Counted from the first letter of the stretch, positions 3,296 to 20,159 are shown. The stretch: DNA of 55,060 nucleotides from Haloterrigena salina JCM 13891 (GCF_000337495.1 NZ_AOIS01000030.1:25804-80863), one strand, 5' to 3'. Translations and numbers: made by a program. Notes: a model not told the origin generated them from the letters alone.

Positions 3296-3868
3296 TCACG
3301 GCTCGAGCAGGTCGGCCGTCGTCGCGACCGTCGCGAACTCCCCCTCGAGGTGGGCCAGCGCGGTCCGGTGGACCGTCTCGGCGTCGAACCGCTCGCCGTC
3401 GAACTCGCGGTCGAAGGTGGCGGTCGCGTCGGCGGCGACGATCGGCTCGAAGCCGAAATTCTCGGCCATCCGCGTCGTCGTCGAGATGCAGTGGTCGGTC
3501 GTGAGGCCGGCCACGATGAGCGTCTCGAGACCGCGCTCGCGGAGCCACGCCTCGAGATCGGTCCCGATGAACGCGCTGTTGACCGACTTCACCATCGTCG
3601 GCTCGCCCTCGAGGGGCGCCGTCTCGGGTTTGTACGCGAATCCGGGGTCGTCGCTCCGAAGCGGCGAGTCGGCCTCCGTCGAATCGTGGCGGACGTGGAC
3701 CAGCGGCCGGTCGGCGTCGCGCCAGCGCTCGAGCAGGCGCCCCGCGTTCGCCTCGGCGTCGGGGTTGTTCCGGTCGCCCCACGAGGGATCGTCGAACCCT
3801 CGCTGGAAGTCGACGAGGACGAGCGCGGCGTCCTCGAGTCGGTCGGCGTCGGTCGGTGCACCCGTCAT
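3296..3868 (-). CDS. Isochorismatase-family cysteine hydrolase
   Basis: 190 aa. The catalytic triad of the family is visible: Asp20 in [11 protein letters not shown], Lys94 in MVKSVNSAF and Cys127 in [11 protein letters not shown], with the preceding cis-peptide region VAGLTTD. Members include nicotinamidase, isochorismatase, N-carbamoylsarcosine amidase and ureidoacrylate hydrolase. The motif spacing does not settle the substrate, though nicotinamidase is plausible. The start at 3868 was chosen because the ATG overlaps the TGA of the upstream MOSC gene by four bases (ATGA), a translational coupling arrangement. Upstream in-frame sequence is Arg-rich and not protein-like. Confidence 0.85.
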
Positions 3869-6740: not shown

Positions 6741-7712
6741 ATGGACTACTATGCGGGCGTCGATCTCGGCGCGACGAACGTCCGTGCCGTCGTCGCCGAG
6801 GACGACGGGACGACGCTCGGTGTGAGCCGACGATCCACACCGCGTGGCCCGACGGGGATCGACGTCACGGAAGGCGTTTTGCGGACGCTTCGCGAAGCGT
6901 GTGGCGACGCCGGTATCGCACCCACTGAAATCGTCGCGGCGGGGATCGGCTCTATCGGTCCGTTCGACCTCGCGGAAGGGGCGGTCATCGATCCGGCGAA
7001 CCTGCCGGACTCGATCGATCGCATCCCGCTGACGGGACCGATCTCGAAGCTGATCGACAGCGACGAGGTGTACCTCCACAACGACACCAACGCGGGCGTC
7101 ATCGGCGAGCGGTTCCACGCCGATCGCAACCCCGACGACATGGTCTACATCACGATCTCCTCGGGGGTCGGCGCCGGCGTCTGCTGCGACGGCGAGATCA
7201 TGAGCGGCTGGGACGGCAACGCCGGCGAGGTCGGCCACTGCGTCGTCGATCCGCAGGGTCGGCTGACCTGCGGGTGCGGCCGCGACGGCCACTGGGAGGC
7301 CTACTGCTCGGGGAACGCGATCCCCGACTTCGCTCGGCTGCTCGCCGAGGACGATCCGACGATCTCGACGAACCTTCCCCTCGAGGGGCCCGATTTCACG
7401 GCCAAGGACGTCTTCGAACTGGCCGGCGAGGACGAACTGGCCGACTACACCATCGAGCAACTCGCCCACTGGAACGCGATCGGCGTGACGAACGTGATCC
7501 ACTCCTTTGCCCCAATCGTGGTCTCCTTCGGCGGCGCCGTCGCCCTCCACAACGAGGAACTGGTCGTCGACCCCATCCGCGAGCGCGTCGCCGAGATGGT
7601 GATGACCAACGTTCCCGAGATCACGGTCACCGATATGGGCGACGACGTCGTCCTCGAGGGCGCCCTCGCCAGCGCGCTGACCGGCGGCACGGGCGACCGC
7701 AAGCAGCTCTGA
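6741..7712 (+). CDS. ROK family sugar kinase (probable glucokinase)
   Basis: 323 aa. The N-terminus YYAGVDLGATNVRAVVAE carries the phosphate-1 motif (D-x-G-x-T/N) of the ASKHA fold. NDTNAGVIGER near residue 113 holds the catalytic Asp region. The ROK zinc motif reads CGCGRDGHWEAYCSG (near 176-190), with His-Trp where many members have Gly-Cys. The C-terminal SFGGAV region closes the nucleotide site. ROK kinases phosphorylate glucose, fructose, mannose or N-acetyl sugars. Glucokinase is the most likely assignment but is not proven. A TATA-like element about 30 bp upstream suggests a leaderless mRNA, and a TrmB-like site precedes it. Confidence 0.85.
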   Translation: MDYYAGVDLGATNVRAVVAEDDGTTLGVSRRSTPRGPTGIDVTEGVLRTLREACGDAGIAPTEIVAAGIGSIGPFDLAEGAVIDPANLPDSIDRIPLTGPISKLIDSDEVYLHNDTNAGVIGERFHADRNPDDMVYITISSGVGAGVCCDGEIMSGWDGNAGEVGHCVVDPQGRLTCGCGRDGHWEAYCSGNAIPDFARLLAEDDPTISTNLPLEGPDFTAKDVFELAGEDELADYTIEQLAHWNAIGVTNVIHSFAPIVVSFGGAVALHNEELVVDPIRERVAEMVMTNVPEITVTDMGDDVVLEGALASALTGGTGDRKQL

Positions 7713-13356: not shown

Positions 13357-13428
13357 GGGCTCGTAGATCAGTGGCAGATCGCTTCCTTCGCAAGGAAGAG
13401 GCCCCGGGTTCAAATCCCGGCGAGTCCA
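13357..13428 (+). tRNA. tRNA-Ala (CGC)
   Basis: Acceptor arms GGGCTCG and CGAGTCC pair with one G-T, with discriminator A at 13428. The anticodon stem CTTCC/GGAAG holds the loop TTCGCAA, giving anticodon CGC (alanine, codon GCG). The T arm CCGGG-TTCAAAT-CCCGG is intact. There is no intron and the CCA is not encoded beyond the acceptor. The 3' end is the core of the direct repeats that frame the neighbouring island. Confidence 0.95.
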
Positions 13429-13701
13429 TTTCCTTCCGCTCACTACGTTCGCTCCAGTCACTGGACTCGCCGTAGTCACACTCGCTTCGCTCGCGTGACT
13501 CCCGGCGAGTCCACAGTTGTGTTGAGAGATTTCACCTCGAGGCGAAGTCTGACTGTTGGTGGCGACGCTGTAGGACGGGTGCGTGTCCACTTCCGAGATC
13601 GTTGCCCGCGATTGCCGATCTCGCCGACTTCGTCTCGGATGATCAGCGCGATTCTCGTGTCCCGCGAGGAACTGTGAGTGCTCGTCAAGTTCGACGGCCA
13701 G
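13416..13701 (+). repeat. Long direct repeat, copy 1 (next to the tRNA)
   Basis: About 285 bp starting in the tRNA-Ala 3' end, matching 16895-17180 with scattered substitutions and small indels. Inside it the tRNA-end core occurs again at 13501-13513 in direct orientation, and GGACTCGCCG at 13463-13472 is the core inverted. The repeat thus contains nested attachment-like sites. Confidence 0.85.
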
Positions 13702-13911
13702 GACGAACCGCGACGAATGCGGATCGATACAATCCTCTCACGGCTGAAGGCCGATAGCTTCGAGAACGTCGGCACGATCGCTGCTGAGGCCCTCGAGAAG
13801 TGGTCGAAGTCAGGGAACGATCCGACGATCCTCCGCGGCGCCGAGTTGACCTGGAAGACTCCCGGCGGCGGAACGGAGACCGGATTCGTCGGCGCCGTCG
13901 CCGATCGGTGA
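13678..13911 (+). CDS. Hypothetical small protein inside the island
   Basis: 77 aa (GTG start). The sequence begins LVKFDGQDEPRRMRIDTIL, continues with a helical part LKADSFENVGTIAAEALEKWSKSG and ends TWKTPGGGTETGFVGAVADR. Its first codons lie in the long direct repeat. The second repeat copy has the same first eight or so codons but then diverges, so it may be a composite or truncated gene. No family recognised. Confidence 0.4.
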   Translation: MLVKFDGQDEPRRMRIDTILSRLKADSFENVGTIAAEALEKWSKSGNDPTILRGAELTWKTPGGGTETGFVGAVADR

Positions 13912-14057
13912 ATCGGCCCGAGTAGTGGCAACACTACCCCGTCACTTCATTTAGACAACCACAGTTTCGTTAGCAGCTGATTTTCACAAGTTCCGTTGTA
14001 TTCGCTCACTCGAGGGCGGGGTCGGCGCCGCAATCGCACCGCAACGCCGCGGGGTCG

Positions 14058-14100
14058 TTTCGCGCTTCGCGCGAAAGCCCCCTTGGCGGGTGTCGCCAAG
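14058..14100. terminator. Two adjacent hairpins at the island's AT-rich border
   Basis: TTTCGCG...CGCGAAA at 14058-14076 and CTTGGCG-GGTGT-CGCCAAG at 14082-14100, followed by an A-rich run and the start of the AT-rich segment. They may terminate transcription from the left or mark an element end. Confidence 0.35.
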
Positions 14101-14210
14101 GCGACAGCGCCAAAAAATTACAGTACCCCTCCCCCACCTCTGCATGCTGAACTCCAGTTGATCCACTCGAAATAACGGTCAAGTTGGTTACAAAGTGCTG
14201 CAATCATTAG

Positions 14211-14220
14211 GTTTATCATA
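14211..14220 (+). promoter_or_regulatory. TATA box of the DUF4145-like gene
   Basis: GTTTATCATA lies 23-32 bp before the ATG at 14243, the normal spacing for a leaderless archaeal transcript. This supports 14243 as the start rather than a longer frame opening before the TATA box. Confidence 0.55.
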
Positions 14221-14242
14221 TGTCATTCAAGACTGCTTTCTA

Positions 14243-15475
14243 ATGGCTGTTGACTCAACTCAATCACTCATCGCTCAATTTGCAGGATTCGTATCTTCAA
14301 AAGACATTTCGAAGGAGGATTGGGAAATCATTACAAAAGAGTTTGGAGTTTACGACACCGCTACTGATACTGAGAGGTTTTTTAGAAGTTGGTATTTTGA
14401 CGATGATGATAAAGCCCTCAGGACTACTAACTTTCTAGAAGGTATTCATGAAGAAGATAAAGAGTTGACAATGTCGCTTATTAGCCGAGTCTATAATCGT
14501 GTAGGCCCAGCGAGTGATGACGAGTTTGAAGAATATCCAATGATTGAGGCTATTGAAGATGATATAGATGACGAGGTTTCATTAGTCAACCGCGTCGCGT
14601 ACAATTCAGAACCGTTTATCGAAATAGATAATTTACCAGAGTCTTTTTACCCGAAATTATTGGACGAGATTAACTCTTGCTATCAGAATGGATCATATAC
14701 AGCGGCCTTAATTCTTTGTCGGAAATTGTTAGAAAATGCTTCAATAGATGCTTTACGTGCGAGGTTCGGAATCAAGAAAGGCAAACATCTATTCTTTAAC
14801 GAAGATAGAAGACAATTTGTACAGTTTAGCACCTTGATATCAAACCTGAAAACAGAGATTGATAATTTCAAACCACTATCTGACGGAGCAGACCAAGAAC
14901 TAATTCGACAACTCCATGAAATTCGACACCAGTCAAATGCCGGCGCGCATTCTTTAGAGACCGATATCACTAAAGAAGAGATTGACGAATACAAACATTC
15001 TATTGAAAGAGCAGCTACTATATTGTTTGATCTTCGGACAAAAGCATTTGATGAGGAAAATATATCTCCGAAATCTGAATCACAAGATGATCAGACAAGT
15101 TCCACTGGATTGGATAAGGAAGATTTTCAGGTATCTGACTCTGAGATGCTTAAGAAATATCAAGACAACATCGGAACTCTATTTAGATTCTCAGATAAGG
15201 GTGATTTACACATAAATGAGAGGGATACTCTCTCACTCGAAGATAAAATAATAATCCATTTTATAGCGTATCAATATGCATCTGAGGTAGAATTGGTAGA
15301 ATCGCCAGTTGTTAGCGTAAATGATTTAATTGAATCGTATAATTCAGACATGGGTGAAATCTGGGGAGTGATCAATGATATAGATTGTCTTAGAAATATT
15401 GATAAGGAAAATGGTGAATTTTCATTTAATGTACAAATGCTTCCGGAAGTGATATCTCGGATAACAGAACGCTAG
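14243..15475 (+). CDS. AT-rich DUF4145/HEPN-like protein of unknown function
   Basis: 410 aa and markedly AT-rich compared with everything around it, a sign of transfer. Residues 1-125 are acidic with no recognised fold. Residues about 135-265 resemble DUF4145 of the HEPN superfamily: YPKLLDEINSCYQNGSYTAALILCRKLLEN, then HEIRHQSNAGAHSLE with the conserved R-x-N-x-G-AH pattern (228-236). Residues about 325-410 (LSLEDKIIIHFIAYQYA to the end) look like a winged-helix domain. DUF4145 proteins are often tied to restriction or other defence proteins, so a defence role is a reasonable guess, no more. The start rests on the TATA box at 14211. It is alone on its strand segment and has no partner enzyme beside it. 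Confidence 0.7.
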   Translation: MAVDSTQSLIAQFAGFVSSKDISKEDWEIITKEFGVYDTATDTERFFRSWYFDDDDKALRTTNFLEGIHEEDKELTMSLISRVYNRVGPASDDEFEEYPMIEAIEDDIDDEVSLVNRVAYNSEPFIEIDNLPESFYPKLLDEINSCYQNGSYTAALILCRKLLENASIDALRARFGIKKGKHLFFNEDRRQFVQFSTLISNLKTEIDNFKPLSDGADQELIRQLHEIRHQSNAGAHSLETDITKEEIDEYKHSIERAATILFDLRTKAFDEENISPKSESQDDQTSSTGLDKEDFQVSDSEMLKKYQDNIGTLFRFSDKGDLHINERDTLSLEDKIIIHFIAYQYASEVELVESPVVSVNDLIESYNSDMGEIWGVINDIDCLRNIDKENGEFSFNVQMLPEVISRITER

Positions 15476-15627
15476 TCCGATATCAGTCTACTCCCTGCGG
15501 TTGTACGTCTCGAAGAGTGATTTCCTCGATATGAACACGAACCGAGTATCTTCCGTGTTCATATTCGGCCCATCGCCCACGAGATCGCCCCAGCCACAGC
15601 ACCGATCACGGCGGGTCCGATCCCCTC

Positions 15628-15637
15628 TTTATAAACT
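15628..15637 (+). promoter_or_regulatory. TATA box for the small accessory gene
   Basis: CTTTATAAAC lies about 55-64 bp upstream of the ATG at 15692, which predicts a leader of roughly 30 nt. It is the only strong AT element in this short gap. Confidence 0.4.
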
Positions 15638-15691
15638 AAGACCGCTCGAGTGAACCGAAAAAACTAGGATAGGCGGGTTGTGTTCACGGCC

Positions 15692-15982
15692 ATGTCTCAC
15701 AACGAGACGCCCGGGTCGGTTCGAATCCGGACCGACGACGGGAACGAATGGCAATTCGACGCAATCCAGAAAGCCGCCCAGTTCTACGACTGTAACCGGA
15801 GTAACGCTATCGCATTCGCCTGCGAAGACGTCGGCACGCTCGTCTCCGCGGCCCAGGCCGTCCTCGAGCGCGAGGACCTGACTCGTGAACAGCGCCGAGA
15901 GATCGCCGAGACACTCTCCACTCGAGCGGTACAGTTCGAGGTCGACACGTCGGTCGCAGTGACGACGAAAGGCCAAATGTAA
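15692..15982 (+). CDS. Small haloarchaeal accessory protein
   Basis: 96 aa. The sequence SVRIRTDDGNEWQFDAIQKAAQFYDCNRSNAIAFACEDV, followed by VLEREDLTREQRREIAETLSTRAVQFEVDTSVAV, resembles a small protein family that I recall from haloarchaeal plasmids and integrated elements, apparently an unnamed DUF (possibly DUF7692). It may be a ribbon-helix-helix-like or antitoxin-like regulator, judging by size and charge, but this is inference. GC-rich codon use contrasts with the AT-rich gene just upstream, so the island is a mosaic. ATG at 15692 (MSHNETPG) is preferred over one 12 bp upstream. Confidence 0.65.
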   Translation: MSHNETPGSVRIRTDDGNEWQFDAIQKAAQFYDCNRSNAIAFACEDVGTLVSAAQAVLEREDLTREQRREIAETLSTRAVQFEVDTSVAVTTKGQM

Positions 15983-16090
15983 TCACCGTTTCTTGATTCA
16001 GCGCAGGATCTGAAACTCGTGTTCAGTGTAGTTGGCGCAGGTATCGGTCAGTACAGAATCTGAAAATCTGGTTTTAACACATGCGGTTTT

Positions 16091-16528
16091 TCAACCGACT
16101 ATCGGTGTAGTTCGGTCGTCATTGTTGTCGCGCCGTGCGCCAACACTGAGGGCTATCGCAGCAGTCAGCAACCCCAGTGCTGAGGCCATGAAGAACCATC
16201 CTAACCAGAGACTCAAGACGGAGAGCCCTACGCCAACAATCGCGGTTCCCCATGTTATCCGCCGGCGGTTAGTCCATGTCGCAACGCCGCCGATAGCAAC
16301 GAGGCCTAAGAGAAGCGTTGCCCAGAAGAACAGTGTGGATGCGTCGCCACCAGTCCCTCCAACAAGGTAGTTAATACCCGATACGCAGCCTTCGGCCCCT
16401 CCGCTTGTCTGGCAGGAGACTGGGCCGAATGTACCCATTAGATAGAGAAATCCGTACGTCCCTGTTAGACCAGCCACCCCTGAAGCGATTCGGGCGACAC
16501 GTTGGGGACCATCTGTTGTGTTAGCCAT
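16091..16528 (-). CDS. Haloarchaeal membrane protein in the island
   Basis: 145 aa with four hydrophobic segments: ARIASGVAGLTGTYGFLYLMGTF, STLFFWATLLLGLVAIGGVATW, ITWGTAIVGVGLSVLSLWLGWFF and SALGLLTAAIALSVGA. A loop with two cysteines (SCQTSGGAEGC) lies between TM1 and TM2, probably outside the cell. No family or function recognised. Base composition is intermediate between the AT-rich gene and the chromosome. It runs opposite to its neighbours. Confidence 0.65.
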   Translation of the reverse strand: MANTTDGPQRVARIASGVAGLTGTYGFLYLMGTFGPVSCQTSGGAEGCVSGINYLVGGTGGDASTLFFWATLLLGLVAIGGVATWTNRRRITWGTAIVGVGLSVLSLWLGWFFMASALGLLTAAIALSVGARRDNNDDRTTPIVG

Positions 16529-16649
16529 ATAGAATTATTTGTGAGATAAGGACTTTAACCTTCTCCAGAGACGGATGTAGTTCACTAAGTACGCAGCTGT
16601 AGTTACCGAAAAAGTGATCGCGTTGCTCTCTTCTGAAGTCGTCAGAAGT

Positions 16650-16892
16650 ATCGGAGATCGATATTTTCGCCTGCTTGGTATCCCGATGGTCGCCGCCACC
16701 GTGCCACCCCAGCGTCGGTAACCTCGAGGCCGCGACGGCCGTCGTCTTGAGGATCTGCGTTCCCCGTCCACGTTTCCGATAGACGGCGAAGCCGTACATC
16801 CCACCGTTCGCCTGTAGGCGATCGTGAGAGGTTTTGTAGACCTTGAAGTTGCCCGGTTGGCCGTCCGCGTGGCGGTGTTTCGTCGCTTTGAA
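16650..16892 (-). pseudogene. Truncated gene of a haloarchaeal element-associated protein
   Basis: The minus-strand translation reads REFKATKHRHADGQPGNFKV, then YKTSHDRLQANGGMYGFAVY, RKRGRGTQILKTTAVAASRLP, TLGWHGGGDHRDTKQAKISIS. It is protein-like, highly charged and stops abruptly on its N-terminal side at the repeated tRNA-end core (16895). Past ISD the frame runs on into non-coding-like sequence. I believe similar intact small proteins occur beside haloarchaeal integrated elements, but their function is unknown to me. The 5' part was probably lost when the second attachment site formed. Confidence 0.5.
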
Positions 16893-16894
16893 CT

Positions 16895-17180
16895 CCCGGC
16901 AAGTCCATTTCCTTCCGCTCACTACGTTCGCTCCAGCCAATGGACTCGCCGTAGTCGCACTCGCTTCGCTCGCGTGACTCCCGGCGAGTCACAGTTGTTG
17001 TTCGCGGTTTCATCTCGAGGCGAAGTCTGACTGTTGGTGGCGACGCTATAGGACGGGTGCGTGTCAACTTCCGAGATTGCTGCCCGCGGTTGCCGATCTC
17101 GCCGACTTCGTCGCAGCTGATCAGTGCGATTCTCGTGTCCCGCGAGGAACTGTGAGTGCTCGTCAAGTTCGATAGCCAGG
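16895..17180 (+). repeat. Long direct repeat, copy 2 (distal attachment-like end)
   Basis: Starts with CCCGGCAAGTCCA (16895-16907), one base different from the tRNA 3' end, and matches 13416-13701 to about 17180. It contains a further direct core at 16980-16991, missing one base, and an inverted core GGACTCGCCG at 16942-16951. After 17180 similarity fades. Confidence 0.85.
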
Positions 17181-17233
17181 GCGGCGGATACGAATCGCCA
17201 CGATCCTCTTGATCGGCGCTATCTAGTCTGTTC

Positions 17234-17410
17234 CCCCTCGACTGGTACGTTTCCGTTGAGGGCTTGATGCCGTCTTTGCTGGTTGTAGTACTACACGAAC
17301 TGTTCAAACCGTTCTCGAGTACTCGCCCGACTGCCCACTCATGAATTACGGAAGCGGTCGATTCGCGTTTTGAGAGTGTAAAACCGCTTTTCGATTGCCG
17401 ACGTGCCCGT
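17234..17410 (-). pseudogene. Remnant of a DDE transposase (IS6-like)
   Basis: The minus strand reads GTSAIEKRFYTLKTRIDRFRNS, a stop, VGSRASTRERFEQFV, a stop, then YYNQQRRHQALNGNVPVEG. This matches the C-terminal end of a DDE (rve-type) transposase, with the catalytic Glu in the AIEKRF helix and the usual YYN-x-RRH-x-AL-x(4)-P-x-E ending. Two in-frame stops (TGA where Trp is expected and TAG where Tyr or Trp is expected) and loss of the N-terminal part make it dead. No terminal inverted repeats were found. Confidence 0.7.
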
Positions 17411-17438
17411 AGTACGAATGGATCGAGAGTAGTGAGGG

Positions 17439-18434
17439 TCAGTTCAGTGAGGCAGGGACGCCGAGAAACTCGAACGGTTCGGTCTCGACGAGTTCGGTGG
17501 CGGCATCGCCAGCAAAGGCGTTCGCCTGGTTCTCACCGAGCGGCAGCGATCGAACTCCGGCATCGGCGGCGAAGTCGATCTCGTCGAGGTCCAGCCAGAA
17601 AACGTTCGGTGAGAACGCCGACTCGAAGTAGTAGCGTCGGTCTCGGTGATCGGCGACTGTGCGCCAGCGCGTCGAGGAGATATGTGGTTCGTCCGGCGTA
17701 CTGATCCCGTACGGGACGGAGACGTTGCGGATCACGCCGAAGACGCTCGCCGTTGCGGTTCGACGGTTCTGTGTCTGTGGGATCGCGTCCACGTAGAAAC
17801 TCGCGCGGGCGAACCGGTCAGCTGGGCGATTCGTTCCCGGCAACATGACGGTTCCACCGATCTCCGACCAGTACTTGTCGAGTGCGAGTTGCTGGTCGAA
17901 CGGCGGGGAGTTCGTCATTACCTGATACTCCCGATCGTGATGGATCACTAACTCGCCGTCGATGTACTCGAGGATAGCGCTGTCACCCGTGGCGTCTGAC
18001 ATGGAAAGGTGCAGGGTGGCGAACCGACCTTCGTCCGGGATTTCGTCGGAAACGACGACGAATTCCTCTTTCCGGTGGTTCTCGACCGCCTCGGCGACCG
18101 TCGCGAAGTTGTCGAGGACGTACTGTGCCCACACTGAGATCGACAGTCCAGGCGTGTCGCCGTCCCACTCGGGATAGTCGGATTCGGTGAGCCACAGAAC
18201 GTTCGCGGCCAGACCAGCCTCGTTCATTCCATCGGTTGTCGCGATGTCGTATGCGGAGGCGATGACACTGCCATACTCAGCGGTCCACTCCTTCGAGGCT
18301 GGACCGACCTTGCCCGTTCGATCCGTTCCGCGCGGGAATACCCAGATGTTGGTTCCGATCTCGCTGTGCCAGTCCATCGACCGGCCGGTGAGCACGATGT
18401 CCTCGGTTCCGAGATACATCAACCGCGTACACAT
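17439..18434 (-). CDS. Choloylglycine hydrolase / penicillin V acylase family Ntn hydrolase
   Basis: 331 aa. The protein begins MCTRLMYLG, so the nucleophile Cys2 is exposed once Met is removed. This is followed by GRSMDWHSEIGTNIWVFPRG, with the family Arg and Asp of the active site, and GMNEAGLAANVLWL near residue 79 with the conserved Asn. Length fits the linear amide C-N hydrolase family (bile salt hydrolase, penicillin V acylase, N-acyl homoserine lactone acylase). It hydrolyses a linear amide. Because there is no signal peptide it is probably cytoplasmic. Bile salts are unlikely substrates here, so an N-acyl amino acid or acyl lactone is more plausible. GC is lower than in the core, suggesting transfer. 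Confidence 0.88.
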   Translation of the reverse strand: MCTRLMYLGTEDIVLTGRSMDWHSEIGTNIWVFPRGTDRTGKVGPASKEWTAEYGSVIASAYDIATTDGMNEAGLAANVLWLTESDYPEWDGDTPGLSISVWAQYVLDNFATVAEAVENHRKEEFVVVSDEIPDEGRFATLHLSMSDATGDSAILEYIDGELVIHHDREYQVMTNSPPFDQQLALDKYWSEIGGTVMLPGTNRPADRFARASFYVDAIPQTQNRRTATASVFGVIRNVSVPYGISTPDEPHISSTRWRTVADHRDRRYYFESAFSPNVFWLDLDEIDFAADAGVRSLPLGENQANAFAGDAATELVETEPFEFLGVPASLN

Positions 18435-18497
18435 ATCGGTTGCCCTCTCTGAATGGCGCCTGCCAATTTTCGCACCGATTTCCGTTCTCCCGTCATT

Positions 18498-18995
18498 TTA
18501 GGCTGCGACTTCTTCAGCTGCAAACATCTCCCGAAGCGTATCTTCGTCCGTCGGCGAGAGGTTCGTGCGAATCACTTCCGGATCGTACGACGCGAGATCC
18601 TCGACGATGCGCTCTTCGGAGACATCGTGAGCGAGCATGAACAGCGCGGAGTGGCCAGGTTCGATCGTATCAGATACTTCGTCAATGAAGTCGTCGTCAA
18701 TACCGACATCGGAGAACTTTCCGGCGAGTGCACCGCTTGCGGCTCCGATCGCAACGCCGAGCCACGGCATCCAGAAAACGGTCCCGATGAGCAGGCCCCA
18801 GAACGCCCCGCCTAGGGCGCCCGCACCGACCAGACTTCGCGCCTGTTTCACTTTGACGTGACCGTTTTCCTTCCGGACGACGACCGCTGCGTCGTCGAGT
18901 TGGAGCAACTCTTCTTTCTGAAGTTCGTAAAGTTCGTCACGGACGGCTTTCGCGCCATCCATGGAATCGAACGCGAGGACGATTAGTTCTTTCAT
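18498..18995 (-). CDS. DUF1269 (TMPRSS-like glycine zipper) protein
   Basis: 165 aa. It starts KELIVLAFDSMDGAKAVRDELYELQKEELLQLDDAAVVVRKENGHVKVKQ. It then has a Gly/Ala-rich membrane-associated part (SLVGAGALGGAFWGLLIGTVFW, GVAIGAASGALAGKFSDVGIDDDFI) and ends with GHSALFMLAHDVSEERIVEDLA. This is the layout of the DUF1269 family, whose members carry a glycine-zipper hairpin thought to insert in membranes. Function is unknown. The ATG at 18995 fits the family start, and upstream in-frame sequence is AT-rich and non-coding-like. It lies 63 bp upstream of the Ntn hydrolase on the same strand. Confidence 0.8.
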   Translation of the reverse strand: MKELIVLAFDSMDGAKAVRDELYELQKEELLQLDDAAVVVRKENGHVKVKQARSLVGAGALGGAFWGLLIGTVFWMPWLGVAIGAASGALAGKFSDVGIDDDFIDEVSDTIEPGHSALFMLAHDVSEERIVEDLASYDPEVIRTNLSPTDEDTLREMFAAEEVAA

Positions 18996-19184
18996 CGGCA
19001 ATGAACGCACAGTGACGTTGGTGTTAAATGCTTCACACAATAATTTAGAATAGTATCTATCTAGAAGTTCGTAAGAATTGATGCGCACTTTATCCGATTT
19101 ACCATTCTCGGAAACTCTCGAGGACCTATATTTTATATGCGATAGCGCCGGTACGAGAGTTACCATACCCGGCAACCGTGGTGT

Positions 19185-20159
19185 TTAGTTCTCGGATTCA
19201 AGGGCAGTGATTCGACGGTGCATCTCGTCACGAATCCACGTCGCTAATTCCGGAACGGGTTCGTCGGCTTCCGGTGCCCAGAATTCGAACGCCTGGGCCG
19301 GTTTGAGGAAGGTAACGATTCGATACAGCGGAATCCGCTTTTCGTACCTATCCGGTAAGCTACCAGCCTGATTTCGATACCCTGCTCGTAGTGCCCGCCG
19401 AAGTCGGTCGGGGTCGTGGATTGGCGGTTGCTCAATCTGTGTCGCTTCTACACGGCAGAGGTCAAACGACGGGTCACCGACGAGCGATTCCTCCCAATCG
19501 ACGAGTCCGACCGCGGAATCGTTCGACTGGACTAAGCAGTTCTTTCGGTTTGGGTCGCCGTGGAGGAGCGATACTGGGACATCAGTGAGTACCTCGCGAT
19601 GTTCTTTGAGAACCTGTTGCACACGGTTCGGAAATTCCGTGAAGCGGTCAGAGAAAACCGTCTGTACGCGCTCTTCGATTGTAGTACAGAGGACAGTAAC
19701 CCACGGGTCTTCTTCGAGGGTGAGGTTATCAGCCGTTCCCCCCAGAATCCGACCGCTTTCCTCGAATCGAACTGCGTGCAGATTCGCCATCGCGTGACCG
19801 ACCCGATACAGCATCGACTCGCGCTCGGATGGTGATGCACCCGACCAACGGGTAACGATGGGTTCACCTGAGAGGGCAGCAGTCGCGAGATAATACGGCT
19901 CGCTTTGCACGCGAGTGGACAGTACGCGTGGCACCCGGATTTCTGCATGAGTGTTGAGATACTGAAGAACAGCACCGGCCCTTCGAATCCGACGACTGCC
20001 ACCGTCGGTCACTAGTTTGAGAAACGATTCCTCGCCACTAGCAAACGAAATACGATAGGTTTGATTCCCCGGATGCTGGGATTCTGAGGGGCTGTCTATC
20101 TCAGAGATGTTCCGGTCCGGGAACGCCCGTTCTAATGCATCGGAAAGAATCTGCCCCAT
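19185..20159 (-). CDS. Aminoglycoside phosphotransferase (APH)-family kinase
   Basis: 324 aa. The kinase-like fold shows SFLKLVTDGGSRRIRRAGAVL (ATP-site Lys region) and SLLHGDPNRKNCLVQ near 205, the Brenner motif H-G-D-x4-N. GLVDWEESLVGDPSFDLCRVE holds the metal-binding Asp. Relatives phosphorylate aminoglycosides, choline, homoserine, maltose or other small alcohols. The substrate cannot be told. Lower GC than core genes puts it in the accessory region. Resistance is not implied, since most archaeal members are metabolic. Confidence 0.85.
   Translation of the reverse strand: MGQILSDALERAFPDRNISEIDSPSESQHPGNQTYRISFASGEESFLKLVTDGGSRRIRRAGAVLQYLNTHAEIRVPRVLSTRVQSEPYYLATAALSGEPIVTRWSGASPSERESMLYRVGHAMANLHAVRFEESGRILGGTADNLTLEEDPWVTVLCTTIEERVQTVFSDRFTEFPNRVQQVLKEHREVLTDVPVSLLHGDPNRKNCLVQSNDSAVGLVDWEESLVGDPSFDLCRVEATQIEQPPIHDPDRLRRALRAGYRNQAGSLPDRYEKRIPLYRIVTFLKPAQAFEFWAPEADEPVPELATWIRDEMHRRITALESEN

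Follow-up and report, generated by a model that had tools for sequence, protein, structure and literature searches.

Behind the tRNA-Ala(CGC) gene of the haloarchaeon Haloterrigena salina lies a 3.48-kb segment that is framed by two copies of a repeat of about 285 bp. Our best explanation of this locus, which we hold as a whole with moderate confidence, combines three things: a provirus relic, a repeat unit that was duplicated by recombination, and small non-autonomous modules that recall the tail of the tRNA. Such modules are not restricted to this tRNA gene. They almost certainly form a real, tRNA-linked family of the Halobacteria. The locus is part of a stretch of 55,060 nucleotides (the window, G000:C30:25804-80863) of a 4.84-Mb draft genome, which we compared to five congeners (G001 to G005). 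The relatives were compared at extracted loci, and their sequences are akin, so the counts given below are not numbers of independent events.

Modules behind tRNA genes

The tRNA-Ala(CGC) gene occupies positions 13357-13428 on the + strand (ARAGORN). Its 3' end, CCCGGCGAGTCCA (from 13416), has an exact copy at 13501. The copy at 16895 (CCCGGCAAGTCCA) differs by one change, and the copy at 16980 lacks one base. Inverted, the core reads (T)GGACTCGCCG and occurs at 13462/13463 and 16941/16942. A repeat search aligns 13409-13705 with 16888-17183 at a spacing of 3478-3479. Identity is 94% across 103 nt and then 90% across 194 nt. The draft consists of 71 contigs, but the two copies are about 9% different, which makes an assembly collapse unlikely. 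An earlier note on this DNA had reported six cores inside a direct repeat of about 285 bp. There is practically no doubt about these observations: all cores are where it placed them (sequence, ARAGORN and repeat search), and the two ends of the repeat align.

What the six cores mean is a different matter. Each 285-bp unit holds one 85-bp module, consisting of a core, spacer A, the inverted core, spacer B and a further core. There are six cores because there are two copies of the module with three cores apiece. The earlier note took six cores as a sign of repeated integration. This argument does not hold, as a module alone has three cores and modules occur behind other tRNAs without the 3.5-kb element. 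The parts of the locus that make up the repeat are as follows.

13357-13428, + strand: tRNA-Ala(CGC), the integration target; its last 13 bases, 13416-13428, are core 1 (sequence, ARAGORN)
13429-13513, + strand: first copy of module M1, 85 bp; spacer A 13429-13461, inverted core 13462-13472, spacer B hairpin 13473-13500, direct core 13501-13513
13514-13692: first copy of a resident stretch of about 180 bp, the right end of the repeated unit; 90% identical to 16992-17183; contains the mosaic junction discussed below
16895-16991, + strand: second (probably resident) copy of module M1; core' 16895-16907 (one change), spacer A 16908-16940, inverted core 16941-16951, spacer B 16952-16979, core minus one base 16980-16991
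16992-17183: second copy of the resident stretch, colinear with G001

The module also exists on its own. The same 85-bp module stands alone behind tRNA-Ala(GGC) in H. salina (C67:106882; 93% identity over tRNA and module), as it does in G001 and G005. In G003 it is displaced by a stretch of about 70 kb, which reaches from tRNA-Ala(GGC) to a core with the 85-bp module (G003:C1:1870174 and 1940522); an integrase pseudogene lies beyond, and the stretch is apparently a large integrated element. An 82-bp version is found behind tRNA-Ala(CGC) in G003 and G004, where the copies are 99% identical compared to about 93% for the backbone. In distant haloarchaea, the inverted core tracks the tRNA: CCCGACGAGTCCA occurs with TGGACTCGTCG, and CCCGGCAAGTCCA with TGGACTTGCCG.

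With up to 3 mismatches, the spacer-B sequence occurs at only 4 places in the H. salina genome, and all 4 adjoin tRNA-Ala-type cores. A chain of palindromes between two protein genes (G000:C67:145847-145975) also combines this spacer B with a core of the tRNA-Ala type. It has no tRNA directly ahead and is conserved in G000, G001 and G002. We considered a 39-kb island behind tRNA-Ala(GGC) on C67 with its far repeat at 145.8 kb; that site is conserved in G001 and G002 and is probably not the end of an island.

Modules are found behind many other tRNA genes. An exact copy of a tRNA's own 3' end lies at most 300 bp downstream of 19 of the 48 tRNA genes in H. salina, 15 of 43 in G001 and 11 of 38 in G003. 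Controls yield far fewer: exact copies are found upstream of 2 of 129 genes, and the ends of other tRNAs are found in the same downstream stretches in 12 of 5432 cases. If mismatches are allowed, the numbers of tRNA genes with a module are 20 of 48, 22 of 43 and 16 of 38, respectively (58 of 129, or about 45%).

A typical module starts with a run of Ts and hairpin A. Then comes an inverted piece of the T-arm or 3' end (about 13 nt) that matches the module's own tRNA, followed by hairpin B and a direct copy that begins in the T-loop, at G|TTC, and continues through the 3' end. The G directly ahead of the T-loop copy is present in 93 of 99 modules, and is also the usual tRNA base at this position. 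The inverted arm is specific to the tRNA: with at most 3 mismatches in 13 positions it matches its own tRNA in 80 of 117 modules, compared to 76 of 681 for the arms of other tRNAs. Within one hairpin class the arms covary (0.212 vs. 0.093 when shuffled; none of 500 shuffles is as high).

The family extends over the whole class. A pattern scan for one spacer-B hairpin type in 84,980 species genomes returned 50 matches, all of them in Halobacteria. Of these, 43 follow a tRNA of the same strand at a distance of at most 300 bp, and about 20 kinds of tRNA are involved. R1, a covariance model of one hairpin type, matches 134 of 145 Halobacteria genomes and 0 of 157 genomes from the other classes of the phylum. 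Nearly identical spacer-B types are found behind different tRNAs and in different families of Halobacteria. When nine module loci were compared to Rfam, only the tRNA itself exceeded the gathering score, and no family matched the modules. We found no description of them in the open-access literature; the family is apparently undescribed.

Two modules in the H. salina genome lie far from their tRNAs. Those of tRNA-Val(cac) (G000:C37:296050) and tRNA-Ser(tga) (G000:C67:304019) are about 3.1 kb and 0.8 kb away, pushed off by inserts. At G000:C11:141783-142371, N bases separate tandem copies of tRNA-Asp, which partly reflects assembly uncertainty.

If this account is correct, a large share of haloarchaeal tRNA genes has a shared small sequence that recalls the tRNA in direct as well as inverted orientation and is subject to turnover among close relatives. 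This would account for the nested partial tRNA copies around haloarchaeal tRNA genes, which confuse the calling of provirus boundaries. The modules would also offer a natural setting in which to study how site-specific recombination works at tRNA tails.

Turnover and folding of the modules

Modules are present in one genome and absent from another with exact boundaries. At tRNA-Arg(gcg), G003 has a module and H. salina and G001 do not. H. salina and G003 differ in this way at tRNA-Glu(ttc), and G004 differs from G001 and G002 at tRNA-Ala(CGC). At tRNA-Arg(tct), G003 contains an extra, second module. At tRNA-Val(tac), the flanks of H. salina and G001 share identities of 0.97 and 0.89, the modules 0.49. 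Even halves of a module can be exchanged: identity at tRNA-Arg(tct) is 1.00 for A and 0.59 for B, and at tRNA-Leu(tag) it is 0.47 for A, 1.00 for B and 0.92 downstream. Where modules stand in tandem pairs, the one adjacent to the tRNA resembles the tRNA more closely in 11 cases, less closely in 4, and equally in 7, which weakly suggests that new modules enter next to the tRNA.

Large elements enter at the same position. In G003, integrase-bearing islands of about 18.6, 12.6 and 18.4 kb lie between tRNA-Gly(tcc), tRNA-Phe and tRNA-Val(gac) and their displaced modules. Because these islands, and a provirus at tRNA-Ala in G001, sit between tRNA and module, we conclude that modules are pushed downstream by them.

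To explain this turnover, we propose that modules are non-autonomous mini-elements. Site-specific recombinases acting in trans would insert them at the tRNA tail and remove them again. The arms would be made at insertion and would then decay. As expected of such elements, the direct repeats equal the tRNA 3' end, and there are precise empty and filled sites at Arg(gcg), Glu(ttc), Arg(tct) and Ala(CGC), although deletion by slippage could also give these. In our judgement, the chances that recombinases move the modules are evenly balanced.

Several observations weigh against such mini-elements. We linked no recombinase to the modules and saw neither circular nor single-stranded intermediates. 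Exact empty sites would likewise remain if modules were lost by slippage between direct repeats. One crossover at the tails does not account for cases in which only A or only B was exchanged. The conserved tandem G.A mismatches indicate that a single strand folds, and this strand could be RNA. The three integrase islands of G003 have neither A nor B at their ends, and we therefore rejected the idea that a module is the cargo-less attachment region of the large islands. Finally, the spacer-B pattern does not occur in 2.9 million viral contigs, for which reason we also rejected the modules as parts carried by viruses.

The folding of the modules bears on the first of two further explanations: modules could be structured RNA trailers. 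Read-through transcripts would fold into hairpins. These would end transcription, serve to protect the tRNA or to process it, or be competitors of its 3' end, and the arms would be selected for RNA pairing. The modules keep a constant position and orientation behind tRNAs, and T-runs often mark their start. The strand in tRNA sense folds more stably than the antisense strand, by 76 to 20 for hairpin A and by 89 to 9 for the arm-B-arm structure. It does so mainly because of conserved tandem GA/GA internal loops, of which there are 82 in the A hairpins of 95 modules. The GA/GA internal loop of hairpin A, found in most modules, resembles sheared-pair motifs. Thus the module may be read as a folded single strand, perhaps of DNA.

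A wobble signature is missing, however. The arms contain 51 G.T pairs and 66 A.C pairs, and hairpin A contains 8 of each. Since G.T is not in excess of A.C, we rejected selection for RNA pairing at the arms. Orthologous modules are not better conserved than their flanks either (21 comparisons; body identity 0.83, flanks 0.88 and 0.92). More than half of the tRNA genes are without a recognisable module, and the modules have no Rfam match. We consider RNA trailers unlikely. If they were real, the modules would be a new kind of element in the 3' trailers of tRNAs, and tractable hosts like Haloferax and Natrinema would have it.

Alternatively, replication errors and gene conversion could produce modules neutrally, through duplication of the tail, template switching for the inverted copies, and conversion via the shared T-loop sequence. 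This would agree with inverted arms that follow the local tRNA, with A.C and G.T mismatches that are about equal, as in decaying palindromes, and with the separate exchange of A and B. Yet such errors do not explain why spacer-B types are almost exactly alike across different tRNAs and families of Halobacteria, and why nothing comparable is found in the other classes of the phylum (0/157). The G|TTC boundary in 93 of 99 modules is also unexpected from random slippage, even though G is the usual tRNA base there. A purely neutral origin is thus improbable.

The provirus relic and the second repeat unit

The 3.48-kb segment is very probably the gutted relic of an SNJ2-type (betapleolipovirus-like) provirus. 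Between the two repeat units it contains the following features.

13685-13911, + strand: C-terminal remnant of Rep (DUF7845 / phrog_3288 = Rep-Arvir, SNJ2 ORF19 family); DNA 89-90% identical to the provirus copies in G001 and G002
13912-14172: conserved non-coding stretch right behind rep; the G001/G002 match extends beyond the rep stop to 14161/14172
14195-15475, + strand: low-GC cargo gene (37% GC vs. 64.5% for the window); DUF4145, weak match to the AbiJ N-terminal domain
15680-15982, + strand: DUF7692 / phrog_4933 protein, common to the G001 provirus
16091-16528, - strand: putative membrane protein without family match
16521-16940, - strand: truncated phrog_2095 gene (phrog_2095 3e-32) that extends into the core, the right end of the provirus; related to the G001 gene at 7133-7516

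Only the C-terminal fragment of Rep is present in the window, and we recognised it by DNA identity. Its full-length homologue in G001 matches PF25227 at 1e-105 and also phrog_3288. In SNJ2 the DUF7845 protein is the rolling-circle initiator Rep-Arvir, and replication requires about 210 bp behind ORF19, the site of the origin (PMC13107129). The stretch 13912-14172 occupies the same place and by analogy may have served as an origin. The low-GC gene is a possible defence gene judging from its domain matches; PADLOC does not match it.

The same tRNA in G001 carries what looks like a complete SNJ2-type relative. This 15.2-kb element lies between the tRNA-Ala(CGC) core and the core that precedes the 285-bp unit. 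Its tyrosine integrase (337 aa) is 60% identical to that of Harhisp1, 43% to HHPV4, 41% to HRPV9 and 40% to SNJ2. In Pfam, the N-terminal SAM-like domain scores above the cut-off and the Phage_integrase match slightly below. The element also encodes a DUF7845 protein and the haloviral PHROG proteins phrog_1979, phrog_2231 and phrog_3232. Sequence and gene order lead us to read these three as ATPase-like, spike-like and VP3-like, respectively. The rep fragment, the DUF7692 gene and the phrog_2095 gene are common to the G001 provirus and the segment in the window. However, gene calls, domains and PHROGs reveal no tyrosine integrase in the window segment, and spike, VP3-like and ATPase genes are missing from it too. 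Because the SNJ2-like integrase is missing, we call the segment a relic rather than a provirus. The att core at the tRNA 3' end is 13 bp in the window, with one change at the right end, and a 16-bp repeat in G001; for SNJ2, 13-14 bp are reported (PMC8371274).

Within the family, the tRNA-Ala modules form a sub-type whose repeated piece comprises the final 14 bases of the tRNA. These bases lie inside the 16-bp att repeat of the local SNJ2-like provirus. Hence, the integrase of that provirus is the natural candidate enzyme for the tRNA-Ala module.

How did the segment come to be framed by two 285-bp units? The second unit (16895-17183) appears to be the older, resident one, as G001 has it with the same right flank (16894-19265 at 94% identity). 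The first unit is a mosaic. It consists of resident sequence up to about 13692 and of provirus rep thereafter, and the switch falls at about 13680-13693 within a block common to both, AGTTCGAC..CCAGG. We think it likely that the additional copy arose by recombination between the resident unit and the rep gene of the provirus.

The order of events at the locus can be inferred from these comparisons. At the start, the 85-bp module and about 180 bp would have stood behind tRNA-Ala(CGC), as the copy at 16895-17183 still does, also in G001. An SNJ2-type provirus would have inserted at core 1, between tRNA and resident module, an arrangement still seen in G001. The left part of the provirus would then have been exchanged for a second resident unit by recombination in the short homologous block at about 13685. 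The donor may have been the resident unit on another chromosome copy of the polyploid host. Deletion of the integrase and structural genes would finally have left the 3.48-kb relic between two 285-bp units.

The alternative, close to the tandem arrays that the earlier note considered, is that two related elements integrated in tandem, each with a 285-bp unit as its own left end. The two units do have the same orientation, and cores lie at the ends of each. However, the provirus in G001 starts with TCAAGATTTTG instead of a unit, and its unit comes after the right core. We had considered TCAAGATTTTG as backbone and rejected this, as it is the left end of the provirus. G002, G004 and G005 contain other relics in which TCAAGATTTTG or a close variant stands directly behind the tRNA or a module. 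Tandem integration further predicts no switch, and the change from resident sequence to rep at the homologous block thus favours recombination. Two tandem elements are distinctly improbable.

Other parts of the earlier note fared better. Its idea of a tRNA-associated element that lost its integrase agrees with the rep remnant, the provirus genes and the missing integrase. A related element with an integrase beside the 285-bp unit exists in G001, where 55 bp separate the end of the integrase gene from the core of the unit. The 3.5-kb insert is not fixed either: the backbone is conserved left of tRNA-Ala(CGC) (to 13428) and right of about 20295, and the contents in between differ in every congener. 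The stretch behind this tRNA is an integration hotspot. In none of the congeners compared did we find a strictly empty site at tRNA-Ala(CGC), with backbone directly behind a single core. The hypervariable stretch also includes a choloylglycine-hydrolase-family gene (PF02275; 17439-18434), which is present in G001 and has no DNA match here in G002-G005.

Comparison with known small elements

The relic shares with SNJ2, HHPV4, HRPV9 and Harhisp1 the rep (DUF7845) remnant and the stretch behind it, accessory genes, and a tRNA as integration site, of which the final 13-16 bases are used. It differs from SNJ2-type proviruses in that integrase, ATPase and structural genes are gone, an AbiJ-like low-GC gene is present, and the resident unit was duplicated and fused to it. 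As a provirus it is ordinary, yet it is a clean example of an SNJ2-type element that decayed to a rep remnant and cargo.

The modules are short, non-coding, palindromic and present in many copies. In this they resemble miniature inverted-repeat transposable elements (MITEs), which are flanked by target duplications, and the PATEs and SMRs of Haloquadratum (PMC3119063). Unlike these, modules are bound to tRNA 3' ends, the duplication is the tRNA tail, and the inverted copy is specific to the target tRNA. No transposon partner was identified for the modules, and no search for one was made.

A paper on archaeal integrons mentions neither haloarchaea nor tRNA (PMC9668308). Our modules recall integron cassettes in some ways. 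They form tandem arrays in one orientation, and new units apparently arrive beside a fixed entry site. Like attC sites, modules are imperfect hairpins with conserved mismatches and a G|TT boundary. Integron recombination acts on a folded single-stranded site, with which the fold asymmetry of the modules is consistent. In contrast to integron cassettes, modules are gene-free, a tRNA gene is the entry site, and the tRNA-sense strand folds more stably. The window contains no tyrosine recombinase between tRNA-Ala and the backbone; PF00589 matches lie elsewhere, and the IntI-specific domain was not searched.

Haloarchaea could have class-wide, gene-free, integron-like cassettes that enter at tRNA genes by a folded-strand mechanism, a tentative idea that we regard as doubtful. 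The folded site of the cassette, with its arm matched to the T-arm of the tRNA, would be cut at the T-loop G|TTC. The cassette would supply a replacement tRNA tail, and arrays would build up. The A and B hairpins would be exchangeable parts that are recognised as folded single strands.

Lastly, the modules resemble the tRNA-targeting integrative elements of archaea (PMC8371274), with direct repeats from T-loop to 3' end that restore an intact tRNA. Compared to those elements, modules are only about 70-170 bp in all, have no integrase, and stand behind about 20 kinds of tRNA.

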